Positions 13,484 through 46,336 of a stretch of DNA of 64,000 bases are shown piece after piece. Every line of letters begins with the position of its first letter. Position 1 is the first letter of the stretch. The notes beneath the pieces are model-generated. The model made no database searches. It was not told the origin of the DNA and saw only the letters and a list, made by a program, of their open reading frames with translations. The DNA is from Schizochytrium sp. TIO01 (lineage: Eukaryota; Sar; Bigyra; Thraustochytrida; Thraustochytriidae): the NCBI GenBank assembly GCA_004764695.1, contig SMSO01000014.1, positions 2,989,148 through 3,053,147 on the forward strand, in the 5' to 3' direction. Position numbers and translations under genes: made by a program.

Positions 13484-14450
13484 TCAGAGAAGCCCTTGTC
13501 GGGCATATTGGTCTGCATAAGCAAGTTGCTCTGGAGTGTCTATACCACTATGGAATTGACCTTCAACGACGCGAAGATATATATTGTGACCAGCCTCTAA
13601 AACCCTTAACTGTTCAAGCTTTTCTTGGTCTTCAAGTGCGCTTTCGGGTAAACTGCTAAAAGCACGCAAGAAATGGAAACGAAAAGCGTATAATCCAAGA
13701 TGTCGCAACACAGTGTGAGGGTCATCTGGCCCAAGGTCGCGGGGGTAAGGGATGAGCGCGCGTGAGAAGTAAAGTGCTTTACCTTGTGCTCCACGGACCA
13801 CCTTCACAACGTTTGGGTCTGACAGAGATTGAATGGTGCCCCTCCATTCTAAAGCCACTGTGCCCATCTCATATGTGGGATTTTCCTGCATAGCCTGAAT
13901 TAGACTTTGAATATGACTAGGATTGACAAACGGTTCATCACCCTGCACATTAATAACAAGGTCATGTTGATCCAGGCCCAGAGACTCACATACTTCCAAA
14001 ACTCGGTCAGTTCCTGATGCATGATCTGGGCTTGTCATCATAGAATTGGCGCCGAATTCTTGTGCCGCTAACTGCACGCGGTCATCATCCGTCGCAATAA
14101 CAATATCGTCTATACCTGAGCATTTTGCTACCTGTTCGTATGTGCGCTGGACCATGGGTTTCCCTCCGATCTAGATCATAGAATGTATCACAATTGCGTC
14201 AGCTCTCTCGCACACATCTATCCTTGCTCAACCAGCACAACATATGCATCATAACCTCACACAATCCAATGTTCTAGGTCTCCTCGAGCAAGAAGGCTTT
14301 CCATTTGAGAATCTGTGGATTGTTCAACTGCCTTTACGAGGAGGGTGTCTGATGCTTTGGGCCTTCTATACCTTAACTTACCTCGGCCAAAGGCTTTCCT
14401 GGGAGCCGCGATGAGCCCCACCTTGCGGGGATGCACGCCACGACTCGCAT
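13484..14450 (-). CDS. kdsB: CMP-KDO synthetase (3-deoxy-manno-octulosonate cytidylyltransferase), two exons
   Basis: Activates KDO with CTP to CMP-KDO, the donor for KDO transfer into glycans (LPS in bacteria, rhamnogalacturonan II in plants). Exon 1 is 14450-14382 (23 codons, starts MRVVACIPARWGSSRLPGK); exon 2 is 14170-13484, starting IGGKPMVQRTYEQ. The 211-nt intron 14381-14171 has GTAAGT and CTAG borders, and phase-0 splicing rebuilds the family's N-terminal IPAR...SxRLPGKPL...GGKPM motif exactly. The product is 251 residues, the usual length. Other family motifs are VQGDEPF, HLGLYAFR and GIDTPEQL, with the metal-binding aspartates in QGDEP and GIDTP. No targeting extension is evident, so it should be cytosolic. 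The intron argues against bacterial contamination. What this organism uses KDO for cannot be read here. Confidence 0.92.
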
Positions 14451-14871: not shown

Positions 14872-17800
14872 CTACGAAGACACACGCCCAGAGTCATTTT
14901 CAGGAGGACGCATACGTACGATCTTCACATCAGACGCAGCCGAAACAGAAGACACATCGTGGGGCGTCAGCAAAATATACTGTCTCATATTACCGGTCTC
15001 AGACGCTCGCCGGGCAGCTTCCACAATAAGCTCCAATGAAATCTTACGATAATCTTGATCCATAAAAACATCGAACTCATCCATCACACGCCACGGAGTT
15101 TGTATTGCCTCACCAAGAGCCATCAGAAACGAAAGCGAGGTAAAAGACGACTCACCTCCTGAAAGTTGGCCTGCATCTTTAACAGAGGTATCTTGACCTT
15201 CATCCTGGCTCATATGGGTATTTGCAGTCTTGTTCCAAGTAAAATTCAAAGCTTTCTCCTTGTCGTCGAAATCTACTGTGCCAGAATGGTTCCGATAAGA
15301 TAGATTCTGGTCAAAGAAACGTTGGATTCTCGTTTTAAGAAAGTTCTTAAGTTGCCTAACGTTTAATTTACGTTTTCCCCTTCCATTCTCCACTCGTTCT
15401 TGTACAACAATGTGAAGTTTGATTTGATTCTTTTCGTAGGATTTACTCTTTTTCTCGCGAGTAATCTGCTTCTCCAATTGTAACTTCACTACATCTAGAT
15501 CAACACCTTCGTATTCCATGCTGACTCTCTGTTTGTCAGCTTGCAACGATTGCTGAAATGTCCGAATGTTTGCATCGGCTTGGCCAGAAGTCAAGTCTGC
15601 CGGCACATCTTCTTCAACGCCATCAGTGTACGCTAACGCTATCTTCTGAGCTTGATCATATCTATTTGATTCATCTCGGTGCTTTTTATCAGTCTCGTTC
15701 ATTCGTTTCTCTGTTTCCTCTTTCTTGGATTTGGCGCGCTCCAAAGATGCAACCACATTAATCGAACTTTGCTTGATCTTGTCCAACTCGTTCTGAGCGT
15801 CCTGCAGAGCAATAGCCAACTGTTGGAGCTTCTCTTCCACAACACGTTGTTTCTCCTGTACAGGCTGAAGCTCATGTGCAATGGATTCTTCGTCTCTTGC
15901 AAAGCGCTCTCGATCCATCTCCAGAGTCGTGATTTCGTTATCGAGATTCTGGATCTGCTGAGAAAGACTCTCCCGCTCAATTTCAACTTCATCATCATTC
16001 TTCACTTTTTCGTCCGTCGACAAAATCTGTTTCTGTAGCTCCTGGATCTCTGTCTCGAGCACCAACTTGCGCTGTCGGGTCTCGCTTATCCCTTGTTCAA
16101 GTTCTCCGCGCTTTTGATTCGAGTTTCGTATAGTTGCATCAATTTGTTGTATCTGCTGTGAGAGCTGCCGCATTTCCTTCTCGGTATCTTGTAGATTATT
16201 GCGGAGCGAGGTCTCCAGCTCTCGAGTATCTTCCACAAGCATCGGCGTCTTGTTGCTGCGACCAAAATATGCCTGCTTGTACTCGTTGCCGTTCTTACGC
16301 AGCTGATACGTATTGGCTTGCATGTCAAGCATAATACTCAAATTCTTGGGCTTGTGACGAAAGGTCACTTCTTCTGCTACCCTGCTCGACTCGCAAAGAC
16401 CAGTGGATTCGATCTTCGCCATATCCAACAACACGTTGAACACGTTGGGGTTGTCGGTCTTGATAATGTCCATCATGCATACAACACTGTCGCTTTGGGG
16501 GCGAAACGCGTTCTTATCAACTCCAGGATATCTTTCAGAAGCAAATTTGCGAATCAATACATTCGGCGCAGGGATGTTAGCCTGTCTGCACAGACTCTTG
16601 AGTATGGCATAGTCGTTGTTATCGAACAACACGAGACGATTGATTGCGTTTTTCAAATGAAACTCCACAGGGAAGCGCCACTTCTGATCGCTCAACGAGA
16701 TGTTGAGACCAGTATGGATAGGAGCATACTTGAATCTGGACTTGTTCTGCTCAATTAGACGTAAAACCTTTTGCATCTCACGACCAAAGCATGATGTGCG
16801 GTCATGGCTAGAGGCTCTCCCTTCGATGGGTGCAAGCGCTGTAAGTATGTCTTTTTTTTCGCGCTTCTTGCGATCGAGTTGTTCTTTCAGTCTAGTCAGG
16901 TTGGGAGTGTGAATATTGACATGTTCTTCAGAGAGCTGGGTAAGTTGAGCTGTGAATGCTTCACGCTGGCTGGATGTCTCGTCTCGCTCCTGGCGTTTCT
17001 CGTCCAACATGCTTCGAAGTTGCTTGGCTTCGTTGTATGCGGTTTCATTCATTCGTTTGGCATCCATGGCTAGCTTCTCACGTTTCTCCTCACAGCTGCT
17101 GCGGGCGTACTTGTGTGACTCTATAGTTCTCTCTGTAGCAACAGTTCGTCTTTTGGCCTGACGTAAGCGTTCCATGTAAGTTTCCATAGTAAGTTTGATG
17201 CGTTTCATCTCGTCGTCAAGGTCATTCTTCTCGGTGTCGAGTTTGGTGACTTGGTCCTGAATGCGAGGAGCGTCTTTTTGTGCGTGTTCAACCTGTGCCT
17301 GGAGGTGTTGTACCTTTTCCTCGCGTTCTTTGAGCTTGGCTTGCAGCTTTTCGAGCAGTGTGGCAGAGATTTGGACTTGTTGTCGAATATCCCGAACTTT
17401 GATCCAAGTTTTCTGTCGCATAGCCTTTTTGAGGTCCTCTTCTTGGTTCTCAAGTCGTCGAATGCGACCCAAACTGTCTTCTAGGAGCTTGCACTTTTTC
17501 TCAAAGTTTCCTAAGTTAGCGACACGTTTTTCGAGAGATCCGTTGCCAGACTCGAAGGACTTGAGTTGATGCTCAAACATGCTATTAATGGCAGCAAGAT
17601 GTGTTGCCTGCATGAAGATCTTATATTTCTCCTTAGGAGAGCCATGTAAAAAAGTCTTGCTGGTTTCCTGATCAAGAATACAGGATGGGTTGTCGACGTA
17701 AATATTGAACCAGCGAACAATTCTAGTCACTGTTGTTCTATTTCTAGAGATGACCTTTTGGGTCTTGGCATTCATAATTTTAAACGAAGAAGAGCCCGAC

Positions 17801-18510
17801 ACTCTAAGGGTTCTCTCTATACGAATTTGTTCGCCATAGGACTTGAACTCGAAGGGAAAAGGTCCGACGTTACAAAGCTCAACAGCTACAGTTGCATCAG
17901 AATTGCTTCCATGGCGAATAAGGCTAGAAAGGTTAGCGCCACGACTTGTGTTACGCGCTCTCAGGCCGAGACAAATTTGAAGTGCTGCGACAATAGCGGA
18001 CTTTCCTGATCCGTTTTGCCCGGTAATGAAGTTGATGCTCTTATTGAAGCTGATTCGGAATCGTCGGTGGCACATGAAGTTAGTGCACTCGATAAGCATG
18101 ACTTTGCCACAATCGTCTCGGATCATTTCTGAAGGAAGTGGTACACTGTGGTCGTTCGCATCTCCATCTTCGTTAGAGCTAGATATTGGACTGCCGGGAT
18201 AATGCTGAGTATTGCTGTCTTGTGTAGCGTCACTATCTGGTGCCTGTACTGGAAGCTGTTTTGTACCGCGGCGTGTTGCGATGTTGGGGGTGTTGGAGCC
18301 GCTGGAGTTGGGTTGGTGGTCGGTGCTAGGAGTTTCGAGTCCCCTTTGACAGTGCTCCAGGGGACCCGGAGGAGTTATAGATTCTTCGCGCTTGTGTTTC
18401 TTTCTTGGATGCATTGCATCACAGGGGGGAGACTCGCTACTATCCCCAGTCGATGTAGACGAGCATCTACCCTGAAGTACTTCAACCTCGTCGCTGGAGT
18501 CTGAGCTCAT
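14872..18510 (-). CDS. Smc6-type SMC protein, copy 1
   Basis: 1212-residue SMC ATPase of the Smc6 type, partner of Smc5 in the complex that handles joint DNA molecules and stalled forks. Order: a Ser/Thr/Pro-rich N-terminal tail of about 125 residues with a basic RKKHKREE patch, Walker A GQNGSGKS (about 164-171), N-terminal coil, hinge (begins after SSHDRTSCFGREM), C-terminal coil, signature LSGGE (about 1116-1120) and Walker B VMDEFDVFMD. The DEFDVFMD Walker B and the FDQNLSYR...GTVDFD block before the signature are typical of Smc6. The ATG at 18510 was chosen because the frame upstream has only a TTG. About 140 bp upstream of the start match copy 2. All ATPase motifs look intact. Head-proximal coil segments differ from copies 2 and 3; the C terminus ends early in SGRVSS. 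Confidence 0.93.
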   Translation of the reverse strand: MSSDSSDEVEVLQGRCSSTSTGDSSESPPCDAMHPRKKHKREESITPPGPLEHCQRGLETPSTDHQPNSSGSNTPNIATRRGTKQLPVQAPDSDATQDSNTQHYPGSPISSSNEDGDANDHSVPLPSEMIRDDCGKVMLIECTNFMCHRRFRISFNKSINFITGQNGSGKSAIVAALQICLGLRARNTSRGANLSSLIRHGSNSDATVAVELCNVGPFPFEFKSYGEQIRIERTLRVSGSSSFKIMNAKTQKVISRNRTTVTRIVRWFNIYVDNPSCILDQETSKTFLHGSPKEKYKIFMQATHLAAINSMFEHQLKSFESGNGSLEKRVANLGNFEKKCKLLEDSLGRIRRLENQEEDLKKAMRQKTWIKVRDIRQQVQISATLLEKLQAKLKEREEKVQHLQAQVEHAQKDAPRIQDQVTKLDTEKNDLDDEMKRIKLTMETYMERLRQAKRRTVATERTIESHKYARSSCEEKREKLAMDAKRMNETAYNEAKQLRSMLDEKRQERDETSSQREAFTAQLTQLSEEHVNIHTPNLTRLKEQLDRKKREKKDILTALAPIEGRASSHDRTSCFGREMQKVLRLIEQNKSRFKYAPIHTGLNISLSDQKWRFPVEFHLKNAINRLVLFDNNDYAILKSLCRQANIPAPNVLIRKFASERYPGVDKNAFRPQSDSVVCMMDIIKTDNPNVFNVLLDMAKIESTGLCESSRVAEEVTFRHKPKNLSIMLDMQANTYQLRKNGNEYKQAYFGRSNKTPMLVEDTRELETSLRNNLQDTEKEMRQLSQQIQQIDATIRNSNQKRGELEQGISETRQRKLVLETEIQELQKQILSTDEKVKNDDEVEIERESLSQQIQNLDNEITTLEMDRERFARDEESIAHELQPVQEKQRVVEEKLQQLAIALQDAQNELDKIKQSSINVVASLERAKSKKEETEKRMNETDKKHRDESNRYDQAQKIALAYTDGVEEDVPADLTSGQADANIRTFQQSLQADKQRVSMEYEGVDLDVVKLQLEKQITREKKSKSYEKNQIKLHIVVQERVENGRGKRKLNVRQLKNFLKTRIQRFFDQNLSYRNHSGTVDFDDKEKALNFTWNKTANTHMSQDEGQDTSVKDAGQLSGGESSFTSLSFLMALGEAIQTPWRVMDEFDVFMDQDYRKISLELIVEAARRASETGNMRQYILLTPHDVSSVSAASDVKIVRMRPPENDSGRVSS

Positions 18511-18540
18511 GAGGGGTCGTGGCGATCTACTGTTCGTCAA

Positions 18541-18683
18541 GTTTCCTCAGAAAGCAGCACTGGTTGATTCTGGTGCAGTGTTACTCGGCTTTAGATTGTT
18601 TGCGGGGTTCCGAGGGGCGTGAGACTGGGTGAGGCCGGGTGAGCTGTTGCTTGTGATACTGTTTTGGATCAGCTTTCGATTTA
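18541..18683. repeat. Duplicated 5' flank shared with Smc6-type copy 2
   Basis: About 140 bp immediately upstream of copy 1 are nearly identical to the segment at 26236-26378 upstream of copy 2; for example, both contain GAAAGCAGCACTGGTTGATT and GGGGTTCCGAGGGGCGTGAG. Similarity fades beyond. Copies 1 and 2 therefore share a promoter-proximal region, whereas copy 3 has different sequence here. Confidence 0.85.
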
Positions 18684-18842
18684 TGCTTTGAAGCATCCGA
18701 AAGAAGGCGTGCTCTCTGTTTCATCTGTTAGCTTTCTGCAGATAGGGAGAACTCTATTTGTAGACTGAGAGCGCTCGCTCTCAAGGGAGCAAAGGGAAAC
18801 CTGGACACCCTGATGTAAGTAGTAATGTTTAATTAGACGTCC

Positions 18843-18889
18843 CTTAGTAGTACCTAGGTCATAGTAGTACCTACTCAGGTACTACTAAG
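18843..18889. repeat. Perfect 13-bp inverted repeat with 21-nt loop
   Basis: CTTAGTAGTACCT (18843-18855) and AGGTACTACTAAG (18877-18889) are exact reverse complements. The loop contains another partial copy, AGTAGTACCT. It lies about 330 bp upstream of the copy 1 start, outside the block shared with copy 2. It could be a regulatory palindrome or a mobile-element scar. Confidence 0.75.
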
Positions 18890-19298
18890 CCTGGCTCTTC
18901 ACAACATTATTATGTTTGGTTGCTGACACTTCGCTGGGAGTGAAAGAAGCACTGCTAGTCGCACTTCGCTGTGTTTGTAAATAGGTGAGCGGTGTCTGTA
19001 TAGGTTCTATTCCATTTCCTTCCGCTCTCGCTGGCCAGAGATTGCTCATAAAAATGTTTTAACTTTGGTTGAAATGCAAACCAAAACTGTAGCCGGTCTT
19101 TTTAGAAGACGTAGAACTTGAAGCGCCGCCACGGATCGTCTTTTGTTTTTGCCTTTCTTTCTTTCTTTCTTTCTTTCTATTTTATTGCTTTAAAAAAATC
19201 CATCTCATTGGTCATATCATTAGGTTTTAAATTTCACAAAGTATCGAAAACGATTCACTTTTTAGTAAGACGATGAGTTTCACATACATTAGTTGATT

Positions 19299-21230
19299 CT
19301 ATTCGTTTCCTGGGCCTGATGAATCGAACAAGTTGTTCGTTATAACACGCTGGTTAAATACACGAAAAACTCTTTCTGAGCAAACAGGCCCAAGTCGTCT
19401 TGACGTCTTAGAAATGATAACATCTTGAAGATGTCGAGCTTGCTGTTCCTCAGGTATTCCTCGCAGTTGATTTTGGTAGAGACGACACAGAGTTCGAGGA
19501 GTCGCAAATTGCTTTGTGAGGGCCTCTGCCATGGCTCCGCTTATGCCTTTTATTTGTTTTAATTGTGCTGCAAATATCTCTCCTACGGTTCGTAGTTTGC
19601 CTTTAGCATTTGCCAAGGAGAATGCTTCGTAGGTGCGGCCGTGATTTATGGTGGATCTCAACCATTCATCACAACTTGCATTTACAGTCAGGTCTGCAAT
19701 TATGTAGTGCATCCGAACAATGAAATCTAAAGAATCCCGAAAGCTTTCAGTATGGACGAGGGTGATTCCGTCTCGAATTTGAGTCCTTGCCATGGCAGTC
19801 CGTAATGCCAGAGGTTTGATACTTGTTTGTTGAGAAGGATCTCCTTCTACAAGATAGATGACTCTCTTCAAGCCGCATCGCTGTAGGCGATACTTTTGTT
19901 CTTTGTACCTGTTGTCCTTGATCGAACTAGCTAAGTCAGCGACCTCCTTTCTTTCAATGATGTAATCAAGGACGTACTCTTTTTTATTTTCCAACCGACT
20001 TCGTACAATCCACATAAAATCTCCTAAAGACAGCGATCGGGTTTCAACATTTGGCACTTGCTCGAGGAGTTTGCTATGAACAACAGAGCGATCTCGTTTT
20101 TTATTTTCTCGAGAGTCTACCAGGAGGATCAGCTCCCACTCTGGATGCTGACCAACCCCCCTCCCAAACGTTTTCTTGATACCTGATAGCGGCTTTGGTT
20201 TTAACGTTTGAAGACAAATCGGCGACTGTGCAAAGGATTGCGAGTTCTCCTTATATACATTATTCGCGAGTTCGCCGCTAAAGTTCATTTGAGAAGAAAC
20301 CATCGGTTTAAGTCCAGAAGACGAAGAGGAAGATTTTGTGTGAGCTTTCGTTGCCAACAGGGAGCAACTGTCCTCAATGATTTCAATTTCATCATCGTCT
20401 TCTTCAGCTTTGTCTGTTTCTTTCTCCGCAATCGCAGAACCACCATACTCATACGTTAGGCTTGATGTTTTGGGTGGAGAATCTTCCAAAACTGATGCTC
20501 CAGGCAATACCGATTGAAATGGAGGTTTACTCTGGGCTCCATGTTCGACAAGCTTTTGTTTGTGTATATCTCGTGCGAAAGAATAGCCCTGATCAGTAAG
20601 CTGTATGAATTCTACGCTAGTTTCTGGGCTCTGAAATCGTTGCAGATAGCCTTCATTTTCTAGTCTTTTACAGTACTCAAATACGCGTTCTGTGCTTGGC
20701 ACTGTCAGATTCCGCTCACGGCGAAAAGTTTGCACATTTGTAGCTACTATGTCATAGGCCAAAGATTCCCTTCCTGTTCCGGCAGAATAAATACCCAAAA
20801 TCGTCGCGTAACCTAGCGTGCCACTGCTCAACGGTACCTTGCTTCTACGACGTTTTGGGCTTTGACCAATATGAATGCCGCCGTCGTCACAGGAATTGGC
20901 ATTCGAGCTAGGTTTGCGCTTGACAGGATTCCCACTTAGATTCGACTCGCCTGGAGTGGCTTGAGAAGCAGTCACATTTAGATGCGAAACCCGCAGATGT
21001 TCACATCGTGCTCGGTATAGCATTCCAGCGGACACTGTGCCTATACCGTGCACTCTGCGAAGGTCATCCTCTGTTCGTAGCTCTTCTGGGAAATTAGCAA
21101 GTGACCGTCGAGCGTAGCGAAGGCGGAGCGCTCTCTTCGAGCTCTTGTCCCTCAACTCCTCCTTGAAAATCTCACGCGAAAGCCAATCAACGAGACATTG
21201 ATTAGCCTCCACGAGCGCTCGTTTCCCCAT
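19299..21230 (-). CDS. MUS81: MUS81 structure-specific endonuclease subunit
   Basis: 643-residue XPF-family nuclease that, with EME1, cuts 3'-flap, fork and nicked Holliday-junction structures. From the N terminus: a helix-hairpin-helix region (about 8-75, with HGIGTVSAGML), a basic linker (KRKP, PKRRRSK), a winged helix (about 127-220), an acidic low-complexity linker, then the ERCC4 nuclease domain with DSREN (372 on), LGDFMW and ERKEVADL (426 on). The catalytic set D, RE, GD and ERKxxxD is intact. A C-terminal (HhH)2-like segment follows, with QIKGISGAMAEAL. The ATG at 21230 is used because only a TTG lies upstream in frame. No intron is needed. It sits between two Smc6-type genes and is transcribed in the same direction. 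EME1 is not in the window. Confidence 0.93.
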   Translation of the reverse strand: MGKRALVEANQCLVDWLSREIFKEELRDKSSKRALRLRYARRSLANFPEELRTEDDLRRVHGIGTVSAGMLYRARCEHLRVSHLNVTASQATPGESNLSGNPVKRKPSSNANSCDDGGIHIGQSPKRRRSKVPLSSGTLGYATILGIYSAGTGRESLAYDIVATNVQTFRRERNLTVPSTERVFEYCKRLENEGYLQRFQSPETSVEFIQLTDQGYSFARDIHKQKLVEHGAQSKPPFQSVLPGASVLEDSPPKTSSLTYEYGGSAIAEKETDKAEEDDDEIEIIEDSCSLLATKAHTKSSSSSSGLKPMVSSQMNFSGELANNVYKENSQSFAQSPICLQTLKPKPLSGIKKTFGRGVGQHPEWELILLVDSRENKKRDRSVVHSKLLEQVPNVETRSLSLGDFMWIVRSRLENKKEYVLDYIIERKEVADLASSIKDNRYKEQKYRLQRCGLKRVIYLVEGDPSQQTSIKPLALRTAMARTQIRDGITLVHTESFRDSLDFIVRMHYIIADLTVNASCDEWLRSTINHGRTYEAFSLANAKGKLRTVGEIFAAQLKQIKGISGAMAEALTKQFATPRTLCRLYQNQLRGIPEEQQARHLQDVIISKTSRRLGPVCSERVFRVFNQRVITNNLFDSSGPGNE

Positions 21231-22548
21231 CCCTCTACAGAAGCAAAGCTTCGGAGGCTGCAAATATCCTTTTCCTGCAAGTTATCGCAAAGCTAAATTG
21301 TCTACCACTCATAAGAACTTGAGGCCCAACATAAATTGGCGCTCCTGCAACGTGAAAACACCTTCTCCTGTGCTCTCGATGGGCTTTCTGCTGCTCTCAA
21401 TTGAGTTTTGGTTGTAAGGGTAGTACTATCCTACCAATGTACATAGGGAGGGTAAATAAGCATGATTGACTACTTGCTACCTACGTAATACTAGCAAGTG
21501 TCTCAAAATAATTATAATGCAGTAAACATAAAAATACTCGGCAGAGGGTTCCTCATGGCAACCTACATTTAAAAAGAGAATGGAATTGAGGGTAAAATAA
21601 GAATCAAGCTTAATACTTGATCCACATTCTAATATATGATATTGGCAATAAAAACTTAAATACACACCATATTTTAATTTCAAAAATAAGAAAAAGACGT
21701 CAACTGTAGTAGGCTTATTCGACTGCAAGTGGTTGATTTACAATATTGGCGTCATGCCGTACTTTTGTAAAAATTAAGGAAGAAAATAAAGATTAAGTTC
21801 TACGCAATTAAAAGATTGAGAGTCAGCTTGTCATTACTCGTCTTGATTTATATTAACACTTCTTTCATATTTGCTTTTCTCTCAAGACCAAGATACCATA
21901 CTTAGTAAAGGCAACTAGTAGAAGAAATGATATATATATATATATATATATAATTATCGCCAACGGTTCAATGTTGCTGGACTACATATCCTCTTTGAAA
22001 AACTCTATCTCACGATTGATGAGAACAGGTATTGGGAATTATTCAATTTTCTAGTTTGCCTGTGTCGATGTGTTCTTAGGGGTAAGCAATAACAGAACCT
22101 ATAATATTCGATCCGTCCTTGAAACCTGCCAAAACTATCGAAGATCTCATTCCTCACGTCTTGAATGCTGGTTTACTTAAGTGTTGATTCCGGTGTTCGA
22201 CAGCGGCCAATTCTCAATACTTCTGGTCCGTATAACCAAAGTATTTTATTTTACTACAACAAAACCCTCAACATTCAATGCGAATTGAGGAGAATTGAGA
22301 TGAATGGACGGCAATATCGAATCAATATACATTTGCCTGCTGCTTTCGATCAGTTCCGTCACTTCTTCCTGATATAATACAACAAAATATTAGACCAACT
22401 CTTTTTCACCTCGTACTAGTGAATGTGAAGAAATCCTTTAATGGTAAGATAACAAGTAAAATTAAAAATCTATCACTCTTGGAATTCCCTGCCAATGTAA
22501 CATAACAATCGTTATCTTCGAACACTGTCTGCGAAATTACCAAATCAA
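21231..22548. other. AT-rich spacer between MUS81 and Smc6-type copy 2
   Basis: Contains the MUS81 promoter and the 3' flank of copy 2. There is a (TA)n run at 21930-21952. A stretch near 22145-22210 resembles a stretch near 28670-28735 in the 3' flank of copy 3, suggesting the duplicated unit extended past the stop codon. No gene seen. Confidence 0.5.
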
Positions 22549-25500
22549 CTACGTAAAACTGGTCTGCTGCGCACCTCCAAAATCAGTTTCAGGAGGACGC
22601 ATATGTACGATCTTCACATTAGAGGCAGCCGGAACAGAAGACACATCGTGGGGCGTCAGCAAAATATACTGTCTCATATTACCGGTCCCAGACGCTCGCC
22701 GCGCAGCTTTCTCAATAAGCTCCAATGAAATCTTACGATAATCTTGATCCATATACGCATCAAACTCATCCATCACAAGCCACGGAGTTTGCATTGCCTC
22801 ACCAAGAGCCATCAGAAACGAAAGCGAGGTAAAAGACACCTCACCTTCTGAAAGTTGGCCTACATCTTTAACAGAGGTATCTTGACCTTCATCCTGGCTC
22901 ATATGGGTATTTGCAGTCTTGTTCCAAGTAAAATTCAAAGCTTTCTCCTTGTCGTCGAAATCTACTGTGCCAGAATGGTTTCGGTAAGATAGATTCTGGT
23001 CAAAGACAAAATTGATTCTCTTTTTGAGACATTCCATACGCCGGTCCCTTTCCAAGTTCTGCTTCAACATTCCCGCCCTTTCTAGATCCAACGAAGCACT
23101 CTCGCATTTGATTTTCTCCTCTTCGAGCAGCTTACTATACTTCTGGCAAGTAATCTGCTTCTCCAATTGTAACTTGATTGCATCTAGATCAACACCTTCG
23201 TATTCCATACTGACTCTCTGTTTGTCAGCTTGCAACGATTCCTGGAATGTACGGATGTTTGCATCGGCTTGGTCAGAAGTCAAATCTGCCGGCACATCTT
23301 CTTCAACGCCATCAGTGTACGCTAACGCCATCTTCCGAGCTTGATCATATCTATTTGATTCCTCTCGGTGCTTTTTATCAGCCTCGTTCATTCGTTTTTC
23401 TGTTTCCTCTTTCTTGGATTTGGCGCGTTCCAAAGATGCAACCACATTGATCGAACTTTGCTCGATCTTGTCCAACTCGTTCTGAGCGTTCTGCAGAGCA
23501 ATATCCAACTGTTGGAGCTTCTCTCCCAGAGCATGTTGTTTCTCCTTTACAGGCTGAAGCTCATGTGCAATGGATTCTTCGTCTCTTACAAAGCGCTCTC
23601 GATCCATCTCCAGAGTCGTGATTTCGTTATCGAGATTCTGGATCTGCTGAGAAAGACTCTCCCGCTCAATTTCAACTTCATCATCATTCTTCACTTTTTC
23701 GTCCGTCGACAAAATCTGTTTCTGTAGCTCCTGGATCTCTGTCTCGAGCAACAACTCGCGATGTCGGGTCTCTCTTATCCTTTGTTCAAGTTCTCCGCGC
23801 TTCTGATTCGAGTTTCGTATAGTTGCATCAATTTGTTGTATCTGCTGTGAGAGCTGCCGCATTTCCTTCTCGGTATCTTGTAGATTATTGCGCAGCGAGG
23901 TCTCCAGCTCTCGAGTATCTTCCACAAGCATCGGCGTCTTGTTGCTGCGACCAAAATATGCCTGCTTGTACTCGTTGCCGTTCTTACGCAGCTGATACGT
24001 ATTGGCTTGCATGTCAAGCATGATACTCAAATTCCTGGGCTTGTGACGAAAGGTCACTTCTTCTGCTACCCTGCTCGACTCGCAAAGACCAGTGGATTCG
24101 ATCTTCGCCATATCCACCAACACGTTGAACACGTTGGGGTTGTCGGTCTTGATAATGTCCATCATGCATACAACACTGTCGCTTTGGGGGCGAAACGCAT
24201 TCTTATCAACCCTATGATATCTTTCAGAAGCAAATTTGCGAATCAATACATTCGGCGCAGAGATGTTAGCCTGTCTGCACAGACTCTTGAGTATGGCATA
24301 GTCGTTGTTATCGAACAACACGAGACGATTGATTGCGCTCCTCAAATGAAACTCCACAGGGAAGCGCCACTTCTGATCGCTCAACGAGATGTTGAGACCA
24401 GTATGGACAGGAGCATGCTTGAATCTGGACTTGTTCTGCTCAATAAGATGTAAGACCTTTTGCATCTCACGACCAAAGCATGATGTGCGGTCATGGTTAG
24501 AGCCGCCCCCTCTGAGGTTTGAAAGATTTGCGCGCATGTCATTTGCTTCGCGTTCCTTGCAATCAAGTTGTTCTTGCAGTCTACTCTTGTCGTCTTCGTG
24601 ACTGTGAATATTGACATGTTCTTCAGAGAGCTGGGTAAGTTGAGCTGTGAATACTTCTCGTTGGCTGGATGTCTCGTCTCGCTCCCGGCGTTTCTTGTCC
24701 AACATGCTTCGAAGTTGCTTGGCTTCGTTGTATGCGGTTTCATTCATTCGTTTGGCATCCATGGCTAGCTTCTCACGTTTCTCCTCACAGCTGCTGCGGG
24801 CGTCCTTGTGTGACTCTATAGTTCTCTCTGTAGCAACAGTTCGTCTTTTGGCCTGACGTAAGCGTTCCATGTAAGTTTCCATAGTAAGTTTGATGCGTTT
24901 CATCTCGTCGTCAAGGTCATTCTTCTCGGTTTCGATTTTGGTGACTTGGTCCTGAATGTGAGGAGCGTCTTTTTGTGCGTGTTCGAACTGAGCCTGGAGG
25001 TGTTCTGCCTTTTCTTCGCGTTCTTTGAGCTTGGCTTGCAGCTTTGCGAGCAGTGTGGCAGAGGTTTGGACTTGTTGTCGAATATCCCGAACTTTGATCC
25101 AAGGTTTCTGTCGCATGGCCTTTTTGAGGTCCTCTTCTTGGTTCTCAAGTCGTCGAATGCGACCCAAGCTGTCTTCTAAGAGCTTGCGCTTTTTCTCAAA
25201 GTTTCCCAAGTTAGCAAGACGTTCTTTGAGTGCCTTCTTGCATGATTGATAGTGCAGGAATTGACTCTCAAACCTGCGTTGATCGTCATCAAGATTTGTC
25301 GCACGCATGACGCTCTTATATTTGTCTTTAGGAGTGCCACGCAGAAAAGTCTTGCTGGTTTCCTGGTCAAGAATACAGGATGGGTTGTCGACGTAAATAT
25401 TGAACGAGCGAATCATTCTAGTCACTGTTGCTCTATCTCTGGAGATGACCTTTTTGGTCTTGGCATTCATAATTTTAAACGAAGAAGAGCCTGACACTCT

Positions 25501-26205
25501 AAGGGTTCTCTCTATACGAATTTGTTCGCCATAGGACTTGAACTCGAAGGGAAAAGGTCCGACGTTACAAAGCTCAACAGCGACAGTTGCATCAGAATTG
25601 CTTCCATGACGAATAAGGCTGGAAAGGTTAGCGCCACGACTTGTGTTACGCGCACTCAGGCCGAGACAAATTTGAAGTGCTGCGACAATAGCGGACTTTC
25701 CTGATCCGTTTTGCCCGGTAATGAAGTTGATGCTCTTATTGAAGCTGATTCGGAATCGTCGGTGGCACATGAAGTTAGTGCACTCGATAAGCATGACTTT
25801 GCCACAATCGCCTCGGATCATTTCTGAAGGAAGTGGTACACTGTGGTCGTTCGCATCTCCATCTTCGCTAGAGCTAGATATTGGACTGCCGGGATAATGC
25901 TGAGTATTGCTGTCTTGTGTAGCGTCACTATCTGGTGCCTGTACTGGAAGCTGTTGTGTACCGCGGCGTGTTGCGGTGTTGGGGGTGTTGGAGCCGCTGG
26001 AGTTGGGTTGGTGGTCGGTGCTAGGAGTTTCGAGTCCCCTTTGACAGTGCTCCAGGGGACCCGGAGGAGTTATAGATTCTTCGCGCTTGTGTTTCTTTCT
26101 TTGATGCATTGCATCACAGGGGGGAGACTCGCTCCTATCCCCAGTCGATGGAGGCGAGCATCTGCTCTCGAGTACTTTGCCCTCGTCGCTGAAGTCTGAG
26201 CTCAT
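22549..26205 (-). CDS. Smc6-type SMC protein, copy 2, with altered signature motif (LSEGE)
   Basis: 1218 residues with the same architecture as copy 1 and an almost identical N-terminal tail, Walker A (GQNGSGKS) and hinge. Two differences are notable. The ABC signature reads LSEGE instead of LSGGE: the codon at 22848-22846 is GAA, where copies 1 and 3 have GGA, a single transition. Walker B is VMDEFDAYMD instead of VMDEFDVFMD. The coil just before the C-terminal head is also of a distinct type (EEEKIKCESASLDLERAG). In SMC and ABC proteins the signature contacts ATP across the head dimer, and substitutions here usually impair head engagement. The frame is open throughout, so the gene is not a simple pseudogene. 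The ATG at 26205 was chosen as in copy 1. Confidence 0.9.
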   Translation of the reverse strand: MSSDFSDEGKVLESRCSPPSTGDRSESPPCDAMHQRKKHKREESITPPGPLEHCQRGLETPSTDHQPNSSGSNTPNTATRRGTQQLPVQAPDSDATQDSNTQHYPGSPISSSSEDGDANDHSVPLPSEMIRGDCGKVMLIECTNFMCHRRFRISFNKSINFITGQNGSGKSAIVAALQICLGLSARNTSRGANLSSLIRHGSNSDATVAVELCNVGPFPFEFKSYGEQIRIERTLRVSGSSSFKIMNAKTKKVISRDRATVTRMIRSFNIYVDNPSCILDQETSKTFLRGTPKDKYKSVMRATNLDDDQRRFESQFLHYQSCKKALKERLANLGNFEKKRKLLEDSLGRIRRLENQEEDLKKAMRQKPWIKVRDIRQQVQTSATLLAKLQAKLKEREEKAEHLQAQFEHAQKDAPHIQDQVTKIETEKNDLDDEMKRIKLTMETYMERLRQAKRRTVATERTIESHKDARSSCEEKREKLAMDAKRMNETAYNEAKQLRSMLDKKRRERDETSSQREVFTAQLTQLSEEHVNIHSHEDDKSRLQEQLDCKEREANDMRANLSNLRGGGSNHDRTSCFGREMQKVLHLIEQNKSRFKHAPVHTGLNISLSDQKWRFPVEFHLRSAINRLVLFDNNDYAILKSLCRQANISAPNVLIRKFASERYHRVDKNAFRPQSDSVVCMMDIIKTDNPNVFNVLVDMAKIESTGLCESSRVAEEVTFRHKPRNLSIMLDMQANTYQLRKNGNEYKQAYFGRSNKTPMLVEDTRELETSLRNNLQDTEKEMRQLSQQIQQIDATIRNSNQKRGELEQRIRETRHRELLLETEIQELQKQILSTDEKVKNDDEVEIERESLSQQIQNLDNEITTLEMDRERFVRDEESIAHELQPVKEKQHALGEKLQQLDIALQNAQNELDKIEQSSINVVASLERAKSKKEETEKRMNEADKKHREESNRYDQARKMALAYTDGVEEDVPADLTSDQADANIRTFQESLQADKQRVSMEYEGVDLDAIKLQLEKQITCQKYSKLLEEEKIKCESASLDLERAGMLKQNLERDRRMECLKKRINFVFDQNLSYRNHSGTVDFDDKEKALNFTWNKTANTHMSQDEGQDTSVKDVGQLSEGEVSFTSLSFLMALGEAMQTPWLVMDEFDAYMDQDYRKISLELIEKAARRASGTGNMRQYILLTPHDVSSVPAASNVKIVHMRPPETDFGGAQQTSFT

Positions 26206-29134
26206 GAGGGATCGCGGCGATCTACTGTTCGTCAAGTTTCGTCAGAAAGCAGCACTGGTTGATTCTGGTGCAGTGTTGCTCGGCTTTAGATTGTGTGCGG
26301 GGTTCCGAGGGGCGTGAGACTGGGTGAGGCCGGGTGAGCTGTTGCTTTTGATGCTGGTTTGGATCAAGCTTTCCAATTCAGACACTCGAAGCATCTGCTT
26401 TGTCTATTTGTTAAGTGCACATAGAGACAACTCTAATAGTGATTTTTTAATGTTGAGGAGTTTTTTGAGAGCGCCCCTAATTGTCTGCTTTCTCTGCAAG
26501 GTAAGGAACTTTCATGGGCATATCGAGTCTAATGTAGGTTTTGGGGTACCTGCTCTCTGTAATGCGTATCTGTTTGCTACTGCGTTTACATTACAAAAAG
26601 GAATATTGTTCTGATTGGGCATGATCTGGCATTGGTTGGGTATAAGTTGTAGCACCTCGATGTTCTTTTCCTGGATGAAGAAAATGGGTTGAGCATTCTG
26701 ACAACGTATAATAGATGATGGTAACAACGGAGTACTTTCACAGTATTAAAAGTTGACAGCAGCTTAGGAACTCAGACCCTGGTGTCTTAGAAGGGAGTAA
26801 ACCGAGGTCCAGAGTTGAGTGCCTCTTAGTATGATTATTAGTATTATTTTTAATTGTATTTTGTTGTTGTTGAATAAAATATTTAATAACATTTAATGTT
26901 GAAAAATAAAATAAAAATTGAGATTAAAATATTTAATCTTTTATTTCTATTTCGCAGCAGCATAGTCGTAGAACCTATTTAATTACCCACTATTGCTAGG
27001 TAAAAATACAAAAAACAGAAAGAAACAGTTTAATCACTCTGCAGCTCGTACGGAGAAGCTCATGTTTCGTTGTCATCGCAGCCTAAAGTGTTGATTTTTG
27101 ACGTTCGGTCTTTTTTTGTCGCTTCACTCAAGGCCAACATTAACCACGGCGTCCATACCATGAGAGTCTTTCTTGAAACTAGGAACACTTCAGCTAGATC
27201 CCAGAGTATTACTGTACTAGAAGTCTATGGGTTGGCGGCCCTGATGAACGAGCTGGAGGAGGCGAAGGTAGGTGGCTATTTTGGCTTGACTTTTTACCCA
27301 AGGTAGTTCATTTTAACGCATCAATCTATCCGAGTTACCTCTGACTAGTGAGAGTATAGAAACATGGTGCTTCTTGCCAGTGGTATGCCTAGGTCTTAGC
27401 TATGTCCTTGTACCCATTCCTCCATTTAAAGCTGTCAGCCACGTTGGTCCTTCTTCATCATGGTTTCAACATCATGTTGATCAATCAGAAGTGGTATTCA
27501 TTCACAGGAGCTTCAATTAAAGGACACAACCAATCGTTCCGTGATATTCAATAACAAATAAAAATATCATAGTCGAGAGGGGCTCACCTTCTCAAAGCGA
27601 ATATGCTGATCTGCAAATTTGTTTCTGAAAGATATGACGGAAATAAGAGAAAACATTTTCGCAGCCGAGCTACCAATGCTGCATGCATGGTGGGCGTTAT
27701 CGAAAACCGATGATCCAAATCTGGTCGATGAGTTGATAGATTGTACTATGCGCTCTCCCGAAGTTATCTTTGAAAGTTTGCTTATCTAGCAACTTTATCG
27801 TGCTTCTTCTGTAATCGACACTGCCAAGTTTTAACCTTTCTTTGAATATTGCAAAGTTGAAATTAGACTATGATGGCGTCAGCCTCCTCAATTTTTAATC
27901 TCCGAAAGTTCTCACAAAGATGGACTCAACACCTAAGTAGTTAGTTGACTATGGATGGTTCAATTTCAGAGATATAGAATTTGGGATTTCATAGTCCTAG
28001 CATTTGTTCTTATACCCACATTCTTTAATCGCATTGGAATTGACTACCAAGATACTGATAAAAAGAATTAGACATTGGGAGAAAGAAGGGAGACCAACTC
28101 TCTTGGCCAAAAGAATCAAAGAGGTTGGATAGGTTGGCTCCTTCTGCTATTAAATTCAAGATATTTACAAGTTAAAAACTACACAAGCAGAATAATGTGG
28201 TTATTCTTGACCATATCTAACTAATAGATAAAGCAAAATATTTCGCTCACTAAATAGAAAATAGTACAGTTAGTTAATGATTTTGATACTACGTCTAGAT
28301 GTATATTTACGATAGATTTAACACAGTGTTGTTTCGCTTCGAGAGAACGTCTTGCTTTTTATTTTATTTTTTCTTTTTTTCTTTTTATCAATAGTAATTG
28401 CTTTTCCTTCTGAAGGCAAGAATAGCCCACTTTAGCAAAAAGGCGAGTATTGCAATAAATTATTTTTTAGACACTTCGACTATCGCTAACAATGCTAACA
28501 ATTTAGAGCTCTTAGACCACAAAATATTTACTTTAGACTAGAGGACGCGATGGAAAAGGGCCGTACTAAGGTTTATTAAGTTTTCCTGTGTATAGGTAAG
28601 TCTGGACAAAGTTTGTAACATTCAGTCTTCATTAAAAACTTAACTATTCGTAGCCCGGAGATATAAGATGCGTGGTTTCTCATTTCTCGAAGGCTGGTGT
28701 ACTTTAAATATTGATTCGAATCCTCCTCATTCGCCAGTTTTATTTAACTTAATTTAAATGACTAGAAAGAAGATTTTTCATAACCATAAATATCCACCTT
28801 AGAAAATAAAATAAAAATTAGAATAAAGTCAAAATATATTATTCATCTATACGAGGGTTTTGAAACAAATGTATAGCTCCTTGAATTAGTAAAGGACATT
28901 AACCTGTTGAAATAAAGCATCTGCTTTAATCCAGCGTATCTATAAATTTCAAGCCAGCGAAAGTGCAATTCAACCTGTCTCTTCTAACTACCTCATCTCC
29001 AAAAAAGCAAGCAATAATGTGAAAAAAAGAAAAAAAAGTAGCAACAGTTATTCATAACTTCACACATTACACCGACCTAAACATCAAGGTTTTTTCGCAG
29101 ATCAGTTGAATTTTTGCTAATATAACCTAATCAA
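26206..29134. other. AT-rich 2.9-kb spacer between Smc6-type copies 2 and 3
   Basis: No supported gene. Two short stretches read like coding remnants: plus strand 27070-27306 (no ATG start; contains KVLIFDVRSFFVASLKAN, and GTAGGT follows LEEAK), and plus strand 27634-27789, an ATG frame of 51 codons beginning MTEIRENIFAAELPMLHAWW. Neither has a recognised domain. The rest is AT-rich, with ATAAAATAAAAATT-type runs near 26870-26940 and 28800-28850. The 3' flank of copy 3 lies at the right end. Confidence 0.4.
26236..26378. repeat. Duplicated 5' flank shared with Smc6-type copy 1
   Basis: Counterpart of 18541-18683 with only scattered substitutions, directly upstream of copy 2. See that entry for the shared landmarks. 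Confidence 0.85.
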
Positions 29135-32100
29135 TTACGTCAAACTAGTCTGCTGCGCTCGTCCAAAGTCATTTTCAGGAGGACGCATACGTACGATCTT
29201 CACATCAGACGCAGCCGAAACAGAAGACACATCGTGGGGTGTCAGCAAAATATACTGCCTCCTATTACCGGTCTCAGACGCTCGCCGGGCAGCTTCCACA
29301 ATAAGCTCCAATGAAATCTTACGATAATCTTGATCCATAAAAACATCGAACTCATCCATCACACGCCACGGAGTTTGCATTGCCTCACCAAGAGCCATCA
29401 GAAACGAAAGCGAGGTAAAAGACGACTCACCTCCTGAAAGTTGGCCTGCATCTTTAACAGAGGTATCTTGACCTTCATCCTGGCTCATTTGGGTATTTGC
29501 AGTCTTGTTCCACGTAAAATTCAAAGCCTCCTTCTCGTCGTCGAAATCTACTGTGCCAGAATGGTTTCGATAAGATAGATTCTGGTCAAAGAAACCTTGG
29601 ATTCTCTTTTTAAGAAAGTACTGAAGCCGCGCAACGTTTTGGTCACGTATTTCCCTTCCATTCTTCATTTGATTTAGTAAACCACTGTGAAGTTTGATTT
29701 GATGCTTTTCGTGGGATTTACTCTTTTTCTCGCGAGTAATCTGCTTCTCCAATTGTAACTTGATTGCATCTAGATCAACATTTTCGTATTCCATACTGAC
29801 TCTCTGTTTGTCAGCTTGCAACGATTGCTGAAATGTACGAATGTTTGCATCGGCTTGTTCAGAAGTCAAGTCTGCCGGCACATCTTCTTCAACGTCATCA
29901 GTGTACGCTAACGCCATCTTCCGAGCTTGATCATATCTATTTGATTCATCTCGGTGCTTTTTATCAGCCTCGTTCATTCGTTTTTCTGTTTCCTCTTTCT
30001 TGGATTTGGCGCGTTCCAAAGATGCAACCACATTGATTGAACTTTGCTTGATCTTGTCCAACTCGTTCTGAGCGTTCTGCAGAGCAATATCCAACTGTTG
30101 GAGCTTCTCTCCCAGAGCATTTTGTTTCTCCTTTACAGGCTGAAGATCATGTGCAATGGATTCTTCGTCTCTTACAAAGCGCTCTCGATCCATCTCCAGA
30201 GTCGTGATTTCGTTATCGAGATTCTGGATCTGCTGAGAAAGACTCTCCCGCTCAATTTCAACTTCATCATCATTCTTCACTTTTTCGTCTGTCAACAAAA
30301 TCTGGTTCTGCAGCTCATCGATCTTCACCTCAAGCAACGACTCGCGACGTTGGGTCTCGCTTATCCTTTGTTCAAGTTCTTCGCGCTTCTGCTTCGAGTT
30401 TCGTATAGTTGCATCAATTTGTTGTATCTGCTGTGAGAGCTGCCGCATTTCCTTCTCGGTATCTTGTAGATTATTGCGGAGCGAGGTCTCCAGCTCTCGA
30501 GTATCTTCCACAAGCATCGGCGTCTTGTTGCTGCGACCAAAATATGCCTGCTTGTACTCGTTGCCGTTCTTACGCAGCTGATACGTATTGGCTTGCATGT
30601 CAAGCATAATACTCAAATTCTTGGGCTTGTGACGAAAGGTCACTTCTTCTGCTACCCTGCTCGACTCGCAAAGACCAGTGGATTCAATTTTCGCCATATC
30701 CACCAACACATTGAACACATTGGGGTTGTCGGTCTTGATAATGTCCATCATGCATACAACACTGTCGCTTTGGGGGCGAAACGCGTTCTTATCAACTCCA
30801 GGATATCTTTCAGAAGCAAATTTGCGAATCAATACATTCGGCGCAGGGATGTTAGCCTGTCTGCACAGACTCTTGAGTATGACATAGTCGTTGTTATCGA
30901 ACAACACGAGACGATTGATTGCGCTCCTCAAATGAAACTCCACAGGGAAACGCCACTTCTGATCGCTCAACGAGATGTTGAGACCAGTATGGACAGGAGC
31001 ATACTTGAATCTGGACTTGTTCTGCTCAATTAGATGTAAGACCTTTTGCATCTCACGACCAAAGCATGATGTGCGGTCATGGTTAGAGCCGCCCCCTCTG
31101 AGGTTTGAAAGATTTGCGCGCATGTCATTTGCTTCGCGCTTCTTGCGATCAAGTTGTTCTAGCAGTCTGGTCTTGTCGTCTTCGTGACTGTGAATATTGA
31201 CATGTTCTTCAGAGAGCTGGGTAAGTTGAGCTGTGAATGCTTCTCGTTGGCTGGATGCCTCGTCTCGCTCCCGGCGTTTCTTGTCCATCATGCTTCGAAG
31301 TCGCTTGGCATCGTTGTATGCGGTTTCATTCATTCGTTTGGCATCCATGGCTAGCTTCTCACGTTTCTCCTCACAGCTGCTGCGGTCGGCCTTGAATGAC
31401 TTTATCGTTCTCTCTGTAGCGACAATTTGTCTTTTGACCTGACGCCGGCGATCCATGTGATCTTCGATAGTAGAATTGATGCGTTTTATCTTGTCCTCAA
31501 GGTCATTCTTCTCGGTTGCGAGTTCGGTGATTTGATCCCGAATGTGAGGAGCGTCTTTTTGTGTGTGTTCAAATTGAGCCTGGAGGTGTTGTACCTTTTC
31601 CTCGCGCTCTTTAAACTTGGCTTGCAGCTTTTCGAGCAGTGCGGCAGAGGTTTGGACTTGTTGTCGAATATCCCGAACTTTGATCCAAGTTTTCTGTCGC
31701 ATGGCCTTTTTGAGGTCCTCTTCTTGGTTCTCAAGTCGTCGAATGCGACCCAAGCTGTCTTCTAAGAGCTTGCGCTTTTTCTCAAAGTTTCCCAAGTTAG
31801 CAAGACGTTCCTTGAGTGCCTTCTTGCCTGACTTGTAATATATGAATTGGCGCTCAAACATGCTACTAATGTCATCAAGATTTGTTGCACGCATGAAGAT
31901 CTTATATTTCTCCTTAGGAGTGCCACGCAGAAAAGTCTTGCTGGTTTCCTGGTCAAGAATACAGGATGGGTTGTCGACGTAAATATTGAACCAGCGAACC
32001 ATTCTAGTCACTGTTGCTCTATTTGTGGAGATGACCTTTTGGGTCTTGGCATTCATAATTTTAAACGAAGAAGAGCCCGATGCTCTAAGGGTTCTCTCGA

Positions 32101-32605
32101 TACGAATTTGTTCGCCATAGGACTTGGGCTCGAAGGGAAAAGGTCCAACGTTACAAAGCTCAACAGCGACAGTTGCATCAGCATTGCTTCCATGGCGAAT
32201 AAGGCTAGAAAGGTTAGCGCCACGACTTGTGTTGCGCGCACTCAGGCCGAGACAAATTTGAAGTGCTGCGACAATAGCGGACTTTCCTGATCCGTTTTGC
32301 CCGGTAATGAAGTTGATGCTCTTATTGAAGCTGATTCGGAATCGTCGGTGGCACATGAAGTTAGTGCACTCGATAAGCATAACTTTGCCACAATCGTCTC
32401 GGATCATTTCTGAAGGAAGTGGTACACTGTGGTCGTTCGCATCTTCATCTTCGCTGTCTGGATAGTCGTTCATACCATTGTTAGTGTGTATCTTTGGTTG
32501 AGACAGTTCATCTTGGTCACTTTGGTCACTTGTTTCGTTCATTTCAGTCTCACGTTTTACGATTGATTCCTCATCGTCGCTCAAATCGCGCCTCCGTTTT
32601 GCCAT
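29135..32605 (-). CDS. Smc6-type SMC protein, copy 3, with a different N-terminal tail
   Basis: 1156-residue Smc6-type ATPase with intact Walker A (GQNGSGKS), LSGGE and Walker B (VMDEFDVFMD). From DANDHSVPLPSEMI onward it is nearly the same as copies 1 and 2. Upstream of that point its tail is unrelated: about 57 residues, acidic, beginning MAKRRRDLSDDEES with a basic KRRR patch. Its 5' flank also differs from the other two. Head-proximal coil segments are its own (SGLLNQMKNGREIRDQ before the C-terminal head), but the C-terminal head resembles copy 1 and the C-terminal AQQTSLT end resembles copy 2. The short tail and intact motifs make it a reasonable candidate for the ancestral copy; that is inference. 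Confidence 0.93.
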   Translation of the reverse strand: MAKRRRDLSDDEESIVKRETEMNETSDQSDQDELSQPKIHTNNGMNDYPDSEDEDANDHSVPLPSEMIRDDCGKVMLIECTNFMCHRRFRISFNKSINFITGQNGSGKSAIVAALQICLGLSARNTSRGANLSSLIRHGSNADATVAVELCNVGPFPFEPKSYGEQIRIERTLRASGSSSFKIMNAKTQKVISTNRATVTRMVRWFNIYVDNPSCILDQETSKTFLRGTPKEKYKIFMRATNLDDISSMFERQFIYYKSGKKALKERLANLGNFEKKRKLLEDSLGRIRRLENQEEDLKKAMRQKTWIKVRDIRQQVQTSAALLEKLQAKFKEREEKVQHLQAQFEHTQKDAPHIRDQITELATEKNDLEDKIKRINSTIEDHMDRRRQVKRQIVATERTIKSFKADRSSCEEKREKLAMDAKRMNETAYNDAKRLRSMMDKKRRERDEASSQREAFTAQLTQLSEEHVNIHSHEDDKTRLLEQLDRKKREANDMRANLSNLRGGGSNHDRTSCFGREMQKVLHLIEQNKSRFKYAPVHTGLNISLSDQKWRFPVEFHLRSAINRLVLFDNNDYVILKSLCRQANIPAPNVLIRKFASERYPGVDKNAFRPQSDSVVCMMDIIKTDNPNVFNVLVDMAKIESTGLCESSRVAEEVTFRHKPKNLSIMLDMQANTYQLRKNGNEYKQAYFGRSNKTPMLVEDTRELETSLRNNLQDTEKEMRQLSQQIQQIDATIRNSKQKREELEQRISETQRRESLLEVKIDELQNQILLTDEKVKNDDEVEIERESLSQQIQNLDNEITTLEMDRERFVRDEESIAHDLQPVKEKQNALGEKLQQLDIALQNAQNELDKIKQSSINVVASLERAKSKKEETEKRMNEADKKHRDESNRYDQARKMALAYTDDVEEDVPADLTSEQADANIRTFQQSLQADKQRVSMEYENVDLDAIKLQLEKQITREKKSKSHEKHQIKLHSGLLNQMKNGREIRDQNVARLQYFLKKRIQGFFDQNLSYRNHSGTVDFDDEKEALNFTWNKTANTQMSQDEGQDTSVKDAGQLSGGESSFTSLSFLMALGEAMQTPWRVMDEFDVFMDQDYRKISLELIVEAARRASETGNRRQYILLTPHDVSSVSAASDVKIVRMRPPENDFGRAQQTSLT

Positions 32606-46069: not shown

Positions 46070-46336
46070 TTTGCTTTGCTTTGCTTTGCTTTGCTTTGCT
46101 CTGTTTTCATTCATTCATTCATTCATTCTGATTGATTGATGTATTGATGTATTGATTGATGTATTGATTGATGTATTGATTGATGTATTGATTGATGTAT
46201 TGATTGATGTATTGATTGATGTATTGATTGATGTATTGATTGATGTATTGATTGATGTATTGATTGATGTAATGATTGATGTAATGATTGATGTAATGAT
46301 TGATGCATTCATTCATTCATTCATTCATTCATTCAT
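46070..46336. repeat. Compound satellite: (TTTGC)n, (ATTC)n, 12-bp minisatellite, (ATTC)n
   Basis: A pentanucleotide TTTGC run (about 46070-46100) is followed by ATTC units, then about 14 tandem copies of the 12-mer ATTGATTGATGT (46131-46304). The last three copies carry an A for T variant (AATGATTGATGT). A second ATTC block follows (46305-46336). The same ATTC unit on both sides suggests the 12-mer arose and expanded inside an ATTC/ATTG tetranucleotide array. All reading frames stay open, so the apparent Ile/Asn-rich proteins are artefacts. Confidence 0.92.

Follow-up and report, generated by a model that had tools for sequence, protein, structure and literature searches.

Three mosaic SMC6 genes with divergence centred on the neck in a gene cluster of Schizochytrium sp. 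TIO01

Duplication of SMC6, the subunit of the SMC5/6 complex whose neck engages the kleisin, is already known as such, and Arabidopsis reportedly carries the duplicates SMC6A and SMC6B. In Daphnia, SMC6A and SMC6B lie 165 kb apart (PMC2680839). The view of an earlier note on this DNA that SMC6 is single-copy in well-studied eukaryotes was too strong in the light of these duplicates. The SMC6 neck is bound by the helix-turn-helix of Nse4 (PMC9191643; PMC7297730) and forms a gate, the opening of which admits DNA and is promoted by Nse5/6 (PMC10191858). SIMC1-SLF2, the human counterpart of Nse5/6, contacts human SMC6 around residues 939-957 (PMC12656486). Here, three SMC6 genes located within 18 kb of the thraustochytrid Schizochytrium sp. 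TIO01 were analyzed in a window of 64,000 nucleotides (contig SMSO01000014.1, here C13:2989148-3053147). The favoured reading, given a probability of roughly 0.55 with its functional part included, is that gene conversion acts partially on an old cluster of SMC6 genes, in which the copies share head and hinge and have diverged in the neck. The three genes are:

14872-18510, minus strand: SMC6 copy 1, open over 1212 codons, with the signature LSGGE, an N-tail like that of copy 2 and a block of its own at alignment columns 535-570.
22549-26205, minus strand: SMC6 copy 2, open over 1218 codons, with the signature LSEGE, the Walker B context WLVMDEFDAYMD and a strongly divergent C-neck.
29135-32605, minus strand: SMC6 copy 3, open over 1156 codons, with a short N-tail of its own and blocks of its own at alignment columns of about 405-469 and at 811-834.

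All three genes were intronless and co-oriented, with no stop codon in any of the frames; if the observed differences were unconstrained, the chance of stop-free frames would be about 1e-5 to 3e-5 per pair. The full-length search of the PDB was done with copy 1, and copies 2 and 3 were assigned through their protein identity to it (86%, 1045/1212 aligned residues, and 84%, 970/1150, respectively). SMC6 gave the best match, over nearly the whole length: the 1091-residue chain 9lwi_A was matched with an E value of 9.6e-75 (255.8 bits) and chain 7ylm_B, which we take to be yeast SMC6, with 3.2e-56, vs 3.3e-8 (35.5 bits) for the best SMC5. Two fragments of copy 3 also matched SMC6 over SMC5. Chain 9lwi_A is taken to be human SMC6, since its residues agree with the human numbering used in PMC12656486. 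The assignment of the copies to different SMC families, which the earlier note had named as one of two outcomes that would overturn its reading, was ruled out by the preference of copy 1 for SMC6 over SMC5, and its description of three full-length, co-oriented, open copies was borne out by the frames, the SMC6 match and the protein identities. In the assembly (64.06 Mb, 37 contigs), the copy 1 protein had eight matches, namely the three copies, four partial matches in two genes on contig C6 and one decayed fragment. No further canonical SMC6 was found by this six-frame search, which ignores introns and could be escaped by a strongly intron-split gene.

The Walker A motif (GQNGSGKS) was identical in the three copies. 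Copies 1 and 3 also had the ATP-binding cassette (ABC) signature LSGGE and the Walker B motif DEFDVFMD, and thus the full set of SMC6 motifs. In copy 2, the signature was changed by a glycine-to-glutamate replacement to LSEGE, and the Walker B context read WLVMDEFDAYMD. The residue following the signature was S or V here, vs R or K in two solved SMC6 sequences. Copy 2 is therefore SMC6 by homology, with a doubtful ATPase function as judged from its motifs.

Over the aligned spans, every pair was approximately 93% identical in DNA, but unevenly so. In the N-tail (columns 1-112), copies 1 and 2 were alike (0.043 nonsynonymous substitutions per nonsynonymous site, dN) and copy 3 was unrelated, and in the N-neck (columns 288-330) all three copies differed. 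Copy 3 was the odd one out at columns 405-469, where copies 1 and 2 were closest, and at columns 811-834; copy 1 was the odd one out at columns 535-570, where copies 2 and 3 were closest. In the C-neck (columns 1020-1067), copy 2 differed strongly from the others (dN 0.51-0.57), whereas copies 1 and 3 differed less from each other (dN 0.197), within columns 1036-1058, and DNA identity fell to 43-45% in 20-codon stretches. The dN of the C-lobe was 0.020 between copies 1 and 3, and 0.047 and 0.061 in the other pairs, with copy 2 having the highest values. The patchwork described previously, with copy 1 resembling copy 2 N-terminally and copy 3 C-terminally, agrees with the N-tail, C-neck, and C-lobe values. 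Because each pair was nearest somewhere (copies 1 and 2 in the N-tail and columns 405-469, copies 2 and 3 in columns 535-570, copies 1 and 3 in the C-neck), the block relationships conflict and no single tree fits all blocks. Hidden compensating frameshifts behind the divergent blocks were rejected, as nucleotide alignments of five blocks (B-F) had no indels except for a 6-base gap in block D.

The clustering of site patterns was assessed by run counts, which were lower than expected (159 observed vs 240 expected, p ≤ 1e-4), and the count was also low for the 62 synonymous-only codons (p 0.0025). Recombination was tested with a three-sequence, 3SEQ-style walk, each copy being taken in turn as the recombinant. 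Over all sites, taking copy 1 or copy 3 as the recombinant gave p 5e-5, and the signal was weak for copy 2 (0.014); at third codon positions, p was 1.5e-4 for copy 1 and 0.010 for copy 3. Segments with conflicting relationships, as expected under gene conversion, were thus found, weakly so with copy 2 as the recombinant.

Synonymous substitutions per synonymous site (dS) in the backbone ranged from 0 to 0.17 in all pairs and segments. In the C-neck, dS was 0.72-0.73 between copy 2 and copies 1 and 3, and 0.06 between copies 1 and 3. The silent differences in the copy 2 pairs (14/32 and 14/31 in the C-neck vs 36/519 and 37/518 in the backbone) were significantly in excess (p 6e-8 and 5e-8), and the silent divergence of copy 2 shifted five- to tenfold between the C-neck and the adjoining segments. 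The dS of the N-neck was 0.26-0.43 in all pairs (p 5e-5, 6e-5, and 0.015 vs the backbone). Silent divergence consequently varied by segment in the N-neck and in the copy 2 C-neck relative to the backbone, and did not do so in columns 421-480 and 531-572 or between copies 1 and 3 in the C-neck; the excess in columns 801-835 was borderline (p 0.022 for copies 1 and 3, 0.22 for copies 2 and 3). The N-neck and the copy 2 C-neck appear to retain an older divergence that has been lost elsewhere, a pattern characteristic of conversion or of sequence imported from a divergent copy. Recurrent gene conversion among the duplicates, as proposed before, is supported by the silent-divergence shifts of copy 2 and by the three-sequence test, and this part of the reading, taken alone, is very probable.

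The same silent sites bear on the alternative that the genes are three recent duplicates which, with no conversion, came under rapid positive selection in the coil and neck. Such selection would fit the excess of dN over dS in the divergent pairs at columns 421-480, 531-572, and 881-910, and in the C-neck for copies 1 and 3. It would also fit the ratio of nonsynonymous to synonymous differences, which in every pair was higher inside the blocks than in the backbone (p 6e-4, 3e-5, and 8e-3), a comparison biased by the choice of the blocks for their divergence. This alternative is nevertheless improbable, given that silent sites in the N-neck of all pairs and in the copy 2 C-neck were about 4-10 times more divergent than those of the adjoining head, that the flanks were mostly unalignable, and that the block-wise relationships conflict.

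Of the 1091 aligned core columns, 201 were variable. Variable columns numbered 18 of 170 in the N-lobe, 11 of 184 in the hinge, 18 of 134 in the C-lobe, and 96 of 491 in the coil outside the neck, vs 55 of 90 in the neck itself (all regions outside the neck together: 146 of 1001). The low count in the hinge, together with the identical Walker A, confirmed the near-identity of these two regions noted earlier. Columns at which all three copies differ lay mainly in the neck (19/25). The neck was delimited twice: first from the data themselves (58 of 89 columns variable), and second as the first 40 and last 50 coil residues, based on alignments with human and yeast SMC6 and on the helix ends of a structure model, which was of low confidence (predicted local distance difference test score 45, predicted template modelling score 0.23) and served for the helix ends only. 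In the alignment, human residues 939-957 fall at the end of the C-neck block. The groove-facing human position 943 corresponds to column 1066, with R, F, and G in copies 1, 2, and 3, respectively, and human positions 940 and 946 correspond to R and D in all three copies. Copy 2 had R at columns 1053 and 1056, where copies 1 and 3 had hydrophobic residues, and both the gate and the ATPase of copy 2 may be altered.

In the favoured reading, repeated gene conversion would keep the ATPase head and hinge alike, so that pairing with SMC5 would be open to every copy. The neck, where the Nse4 kleisin and the Nse5/6 loader are bound in yeast and human SMC6, would have been left, or selected, to diverge. 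SMC5/6 rings built with different copies may then vary in the way their kleisin gate is held or opened. Copies 1 and 3 would act as ATPase-competent subunits, and copy 2, given its signature change, would be a weak, regulatory, or failing one. Functional diversification of the copies is plausible, though unproven. The suggestion of the earlier note that a diversified SMC6 set is under selection may be correct, since the divergence is centred on one functional region.

Several results weigh against this reading. The longest-run test was not significant on the synonymous-only codons (p 0.13-0.41), and the third-position walk with copy 2 as the recombinant gave p 0.14. The two neck definitions agreed, but neither was fully independent of the data and the first was made post hoc. 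Columns 421-480 and 531-572 had a high dN with no significant rise in dS (p 0.11-0.74), and so did the C-neck of copies 1 and 3 (silent differences 2/32, p 1.0). Conversion alone does not explain these blocks of high dN and low dS, and protein-level change, by selection or relaxation, has therefore also taken place in columns 421-480 and 531-572. Finally, only one Nse4 gene (Pfam-confirmed, on the contig of the cluster at a distance of about 100 kb, C13:2902573-2902839) and one MAGE/Nse3 gene (contig C33) were matched in the genome, so there is no set of kleisins to match the three copies.

The main rival is that the copies are redundant and undergo birth-and-death, with passive homogenisation, drift of coil and neck under relaxed constraint, copy 2 close to a pseudogene, and one or two copies that matter. 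This is a serious alternative, although we consider it clearly less probable than functional divergence of the neck within a converting cluster. The changed signature and Walker B context of copy 2 and its highest C-lobe dN, as well as a decayed SMC6 fragment inside the cluster, speak for redundancy, and the dN of the blocks is of the same order as dS. SMC5 and SMC6 are also stated to be fast-evolving (PMC2680839). On the other hand, three frames of more than 1150 codons have remained stop-free, and simple relaxation would be expected to spread variation more evenly than the observed 55/90 columns in the neck vs 96/491 in the rest of the coil. The unstable locus offered earlier as an explanation is supported in the birth-and-death sense, by the decayed fragment and the altered copy 2.

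A more far-reaching version of the favoured reading was also considered, in which the cluster would be a set of swappable neck gates. A head and hinge chassis shared by all copies would carry diversifying kleisin and loader interfaces, with conversion maintaining the set and conflict with extrachromosomal DNA driving it. Repression of circular DNA, both viral and plasmid, is a function of human SMC5/6, which a viral protein in turn antagonises (PMC12656486). A high-copy mirusvirus episome is present in the thraustochytrid Aurantiochytrium limacinum (PMC12911909). A diversified neck would preserve the host function of SMC5/6 while evading antagonists bound at the loader site. This version is speculative and is regarded as a long shot.

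The other features of the cluster and its edges are:

18511-18677, minus strand: 5' flank of copy 1, shared with the flank of copy 2 (26206-26373).
19299-21230, minus strand: Mus81 endonuclease gene (Pfam ERCC4 and EME1-MUS81_C; PDB Mus81, E 6.6e-32).
27453-27741, plus strand: decayed fragment of an SMC6 hinge, about 34-35% identical to the three copies and interrupted by stops and a frame change.
34288-36399, plus strand: Rad21/Rec8 cohesin kleisin gene (Pfam), head-to-head with copy 3, a neighbour outside the array.

Mus81 had a single match in the genome and lies between copies 1 and 2. These two copies are hence co-oriented, as described in the earlier note, but not directly adjacent. Mus81 as part of the duplicated unit was unsupported, given its single match. 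The hinge fragment, between copies 2 and 3 and in the opposite orientation, contains one TAG and one TAA. Its first part (27453-27701) was matched with an E value of 3.2e-4 in the genome search and 1.4e-6 with copy 1 in the window search; a second frame, up to 27741, was matched weakly (1.7 in the window search, 3e-4 when the intergenic stretch alone was searched). Being far more divergent than the three copies, it hints at a lost older SMC6 lineage. Similarity between the flanks, short matches on either strand aside, stopped about 170-190 bp upstream (copies 1 and 2 only) and about 20 bp downstream (copies 2 and 3 only), and no similarity was found between the 5' flanks of copies 1 and 3. This stopping of similarity near the genes fits an old cluster in which genes, not spacers, have been homogenised.

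These surroundings also bear on an assembly artefact, in which false duplication or chimeras of alleles would have produced the array. The copies adjoin different genes (Mus81, the relic, and Rad21), the window contains no N, the other SMC family loci are not tripled, and copies that are 93% identical overall would have to fall to 43-45% in C-neck stretches. An artefact is very unlikely.

SMC5, Nse4, and Nse3 partner genes are present, and complex formation by copies 1-3 is putative. SMC5 was represented by two adjacent genes on the same strand of contig C6 (locus L022, 1249-4716 and 6318-9617, both minus), which matched SMC5 in the PDB with E values of 1.6e-63 and 4.7e-71 and were 31% identical to each other. 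Walker A is unusual in the first gene (AMNGAGKST) and reads GPNGSGKST in the second; the pair represents an old duplication of SMC5 within this genome. Pfam SMC had 13 matches in the assembly, including four further SMC loci, presumably SMC1-4. Rad21_Rec8 was matched in the genome only by the gene at 34288-36399. The search for zf-Nse (NSE2) gave four matches, three of which were over the cut-off (one only with its neighbours); these may be other RING proteins and were not used. Rad21/Rec8, Mus81, SMC6, and Nse4 occur on one stretch of the contig, as a loose cluster of chromosome-maintenance genes, perhaps by chance.

Other observations were made in the window and the genome. A CTP_transf_3 cytidylyltransferase frame (13484-14155, minus strand) adjoins copy 1; this family includes CMP-KDO synthetases. 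A minisatellite was detected at 46143-46313 (12-base unit, 14.2 copies, 97% matches) and a PCIF1-type gene at 52227-54269 on the plus strand (PCIF1_WW, E 2.4e-43), and G+C content was mostly 42-50% in 2-kb steps. Thraustochytrids carry pfaD-type polyunsaturated fatty acid (PUFA) synthases, and the pfaD family had four matches in the genome, two of them over the cut-off at 672-674 bits (C4:589107-590444 and C30:1474872-1476209, in open frames of 2044 and 1647 codons). The same family was matched in 3 of 14 bacterial control genomes, in one case over the cut-off, so the matches are no more than a hint of a thraustochytrid or related labyrinthulomycete. No elicitin was matched in the genome, which speaks weakly against an oomycete, as the 14 controls had no match either.

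Control of the SMC6-kleisin gate in the SMC5/6 ring is still under study, and natural paralogs with the same head and hinge but different necks offer a ready series of variants for gate and loader specificity. If the copies serve different complexes, a core chromosome machine would have diversified here in an uncommon way; otherwise, the locus still clearly illustrates how a gene for chromosome maintenance can be partially homogenised. No precedent for a mosaic SMC6 triplet with neck-centred divergence, and no paper on SMC6 in Aurantiochytrium, was found in a library of open-licence papers, and no relatives of the cluster were confirmed in viral (3 pattern-matching stretches) or prokaryotic (135) contig collections, a negative of little weight.

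Compared with SMC6 of the SMC5/6 complex in general, the genes are alike in the full-length match, in Walker A, and, in copies 1 and 3, in LSGGE and DEFDVFMD, and they differ in being three mosaic copies, in the LSEGE of copy 2, and in the S or V after the signature. The locus shares a lineage-specific duplication of SMC6 with the SMC6A/SMC6B pairs said to occur in Arabidopsis and described in Daphnia; unlike those pairs, it comprises three copies in 18 kb, which are alike in a patchwork manner and diverge chiefly in the neck. A homogenised backbone and blocks of older divergence are features of tandem gene families shaped by concerted evolution or partial gene conversion. Both are found here, but in a gene of core chromosome function, whose family has one or two copies in the other organisms considered.

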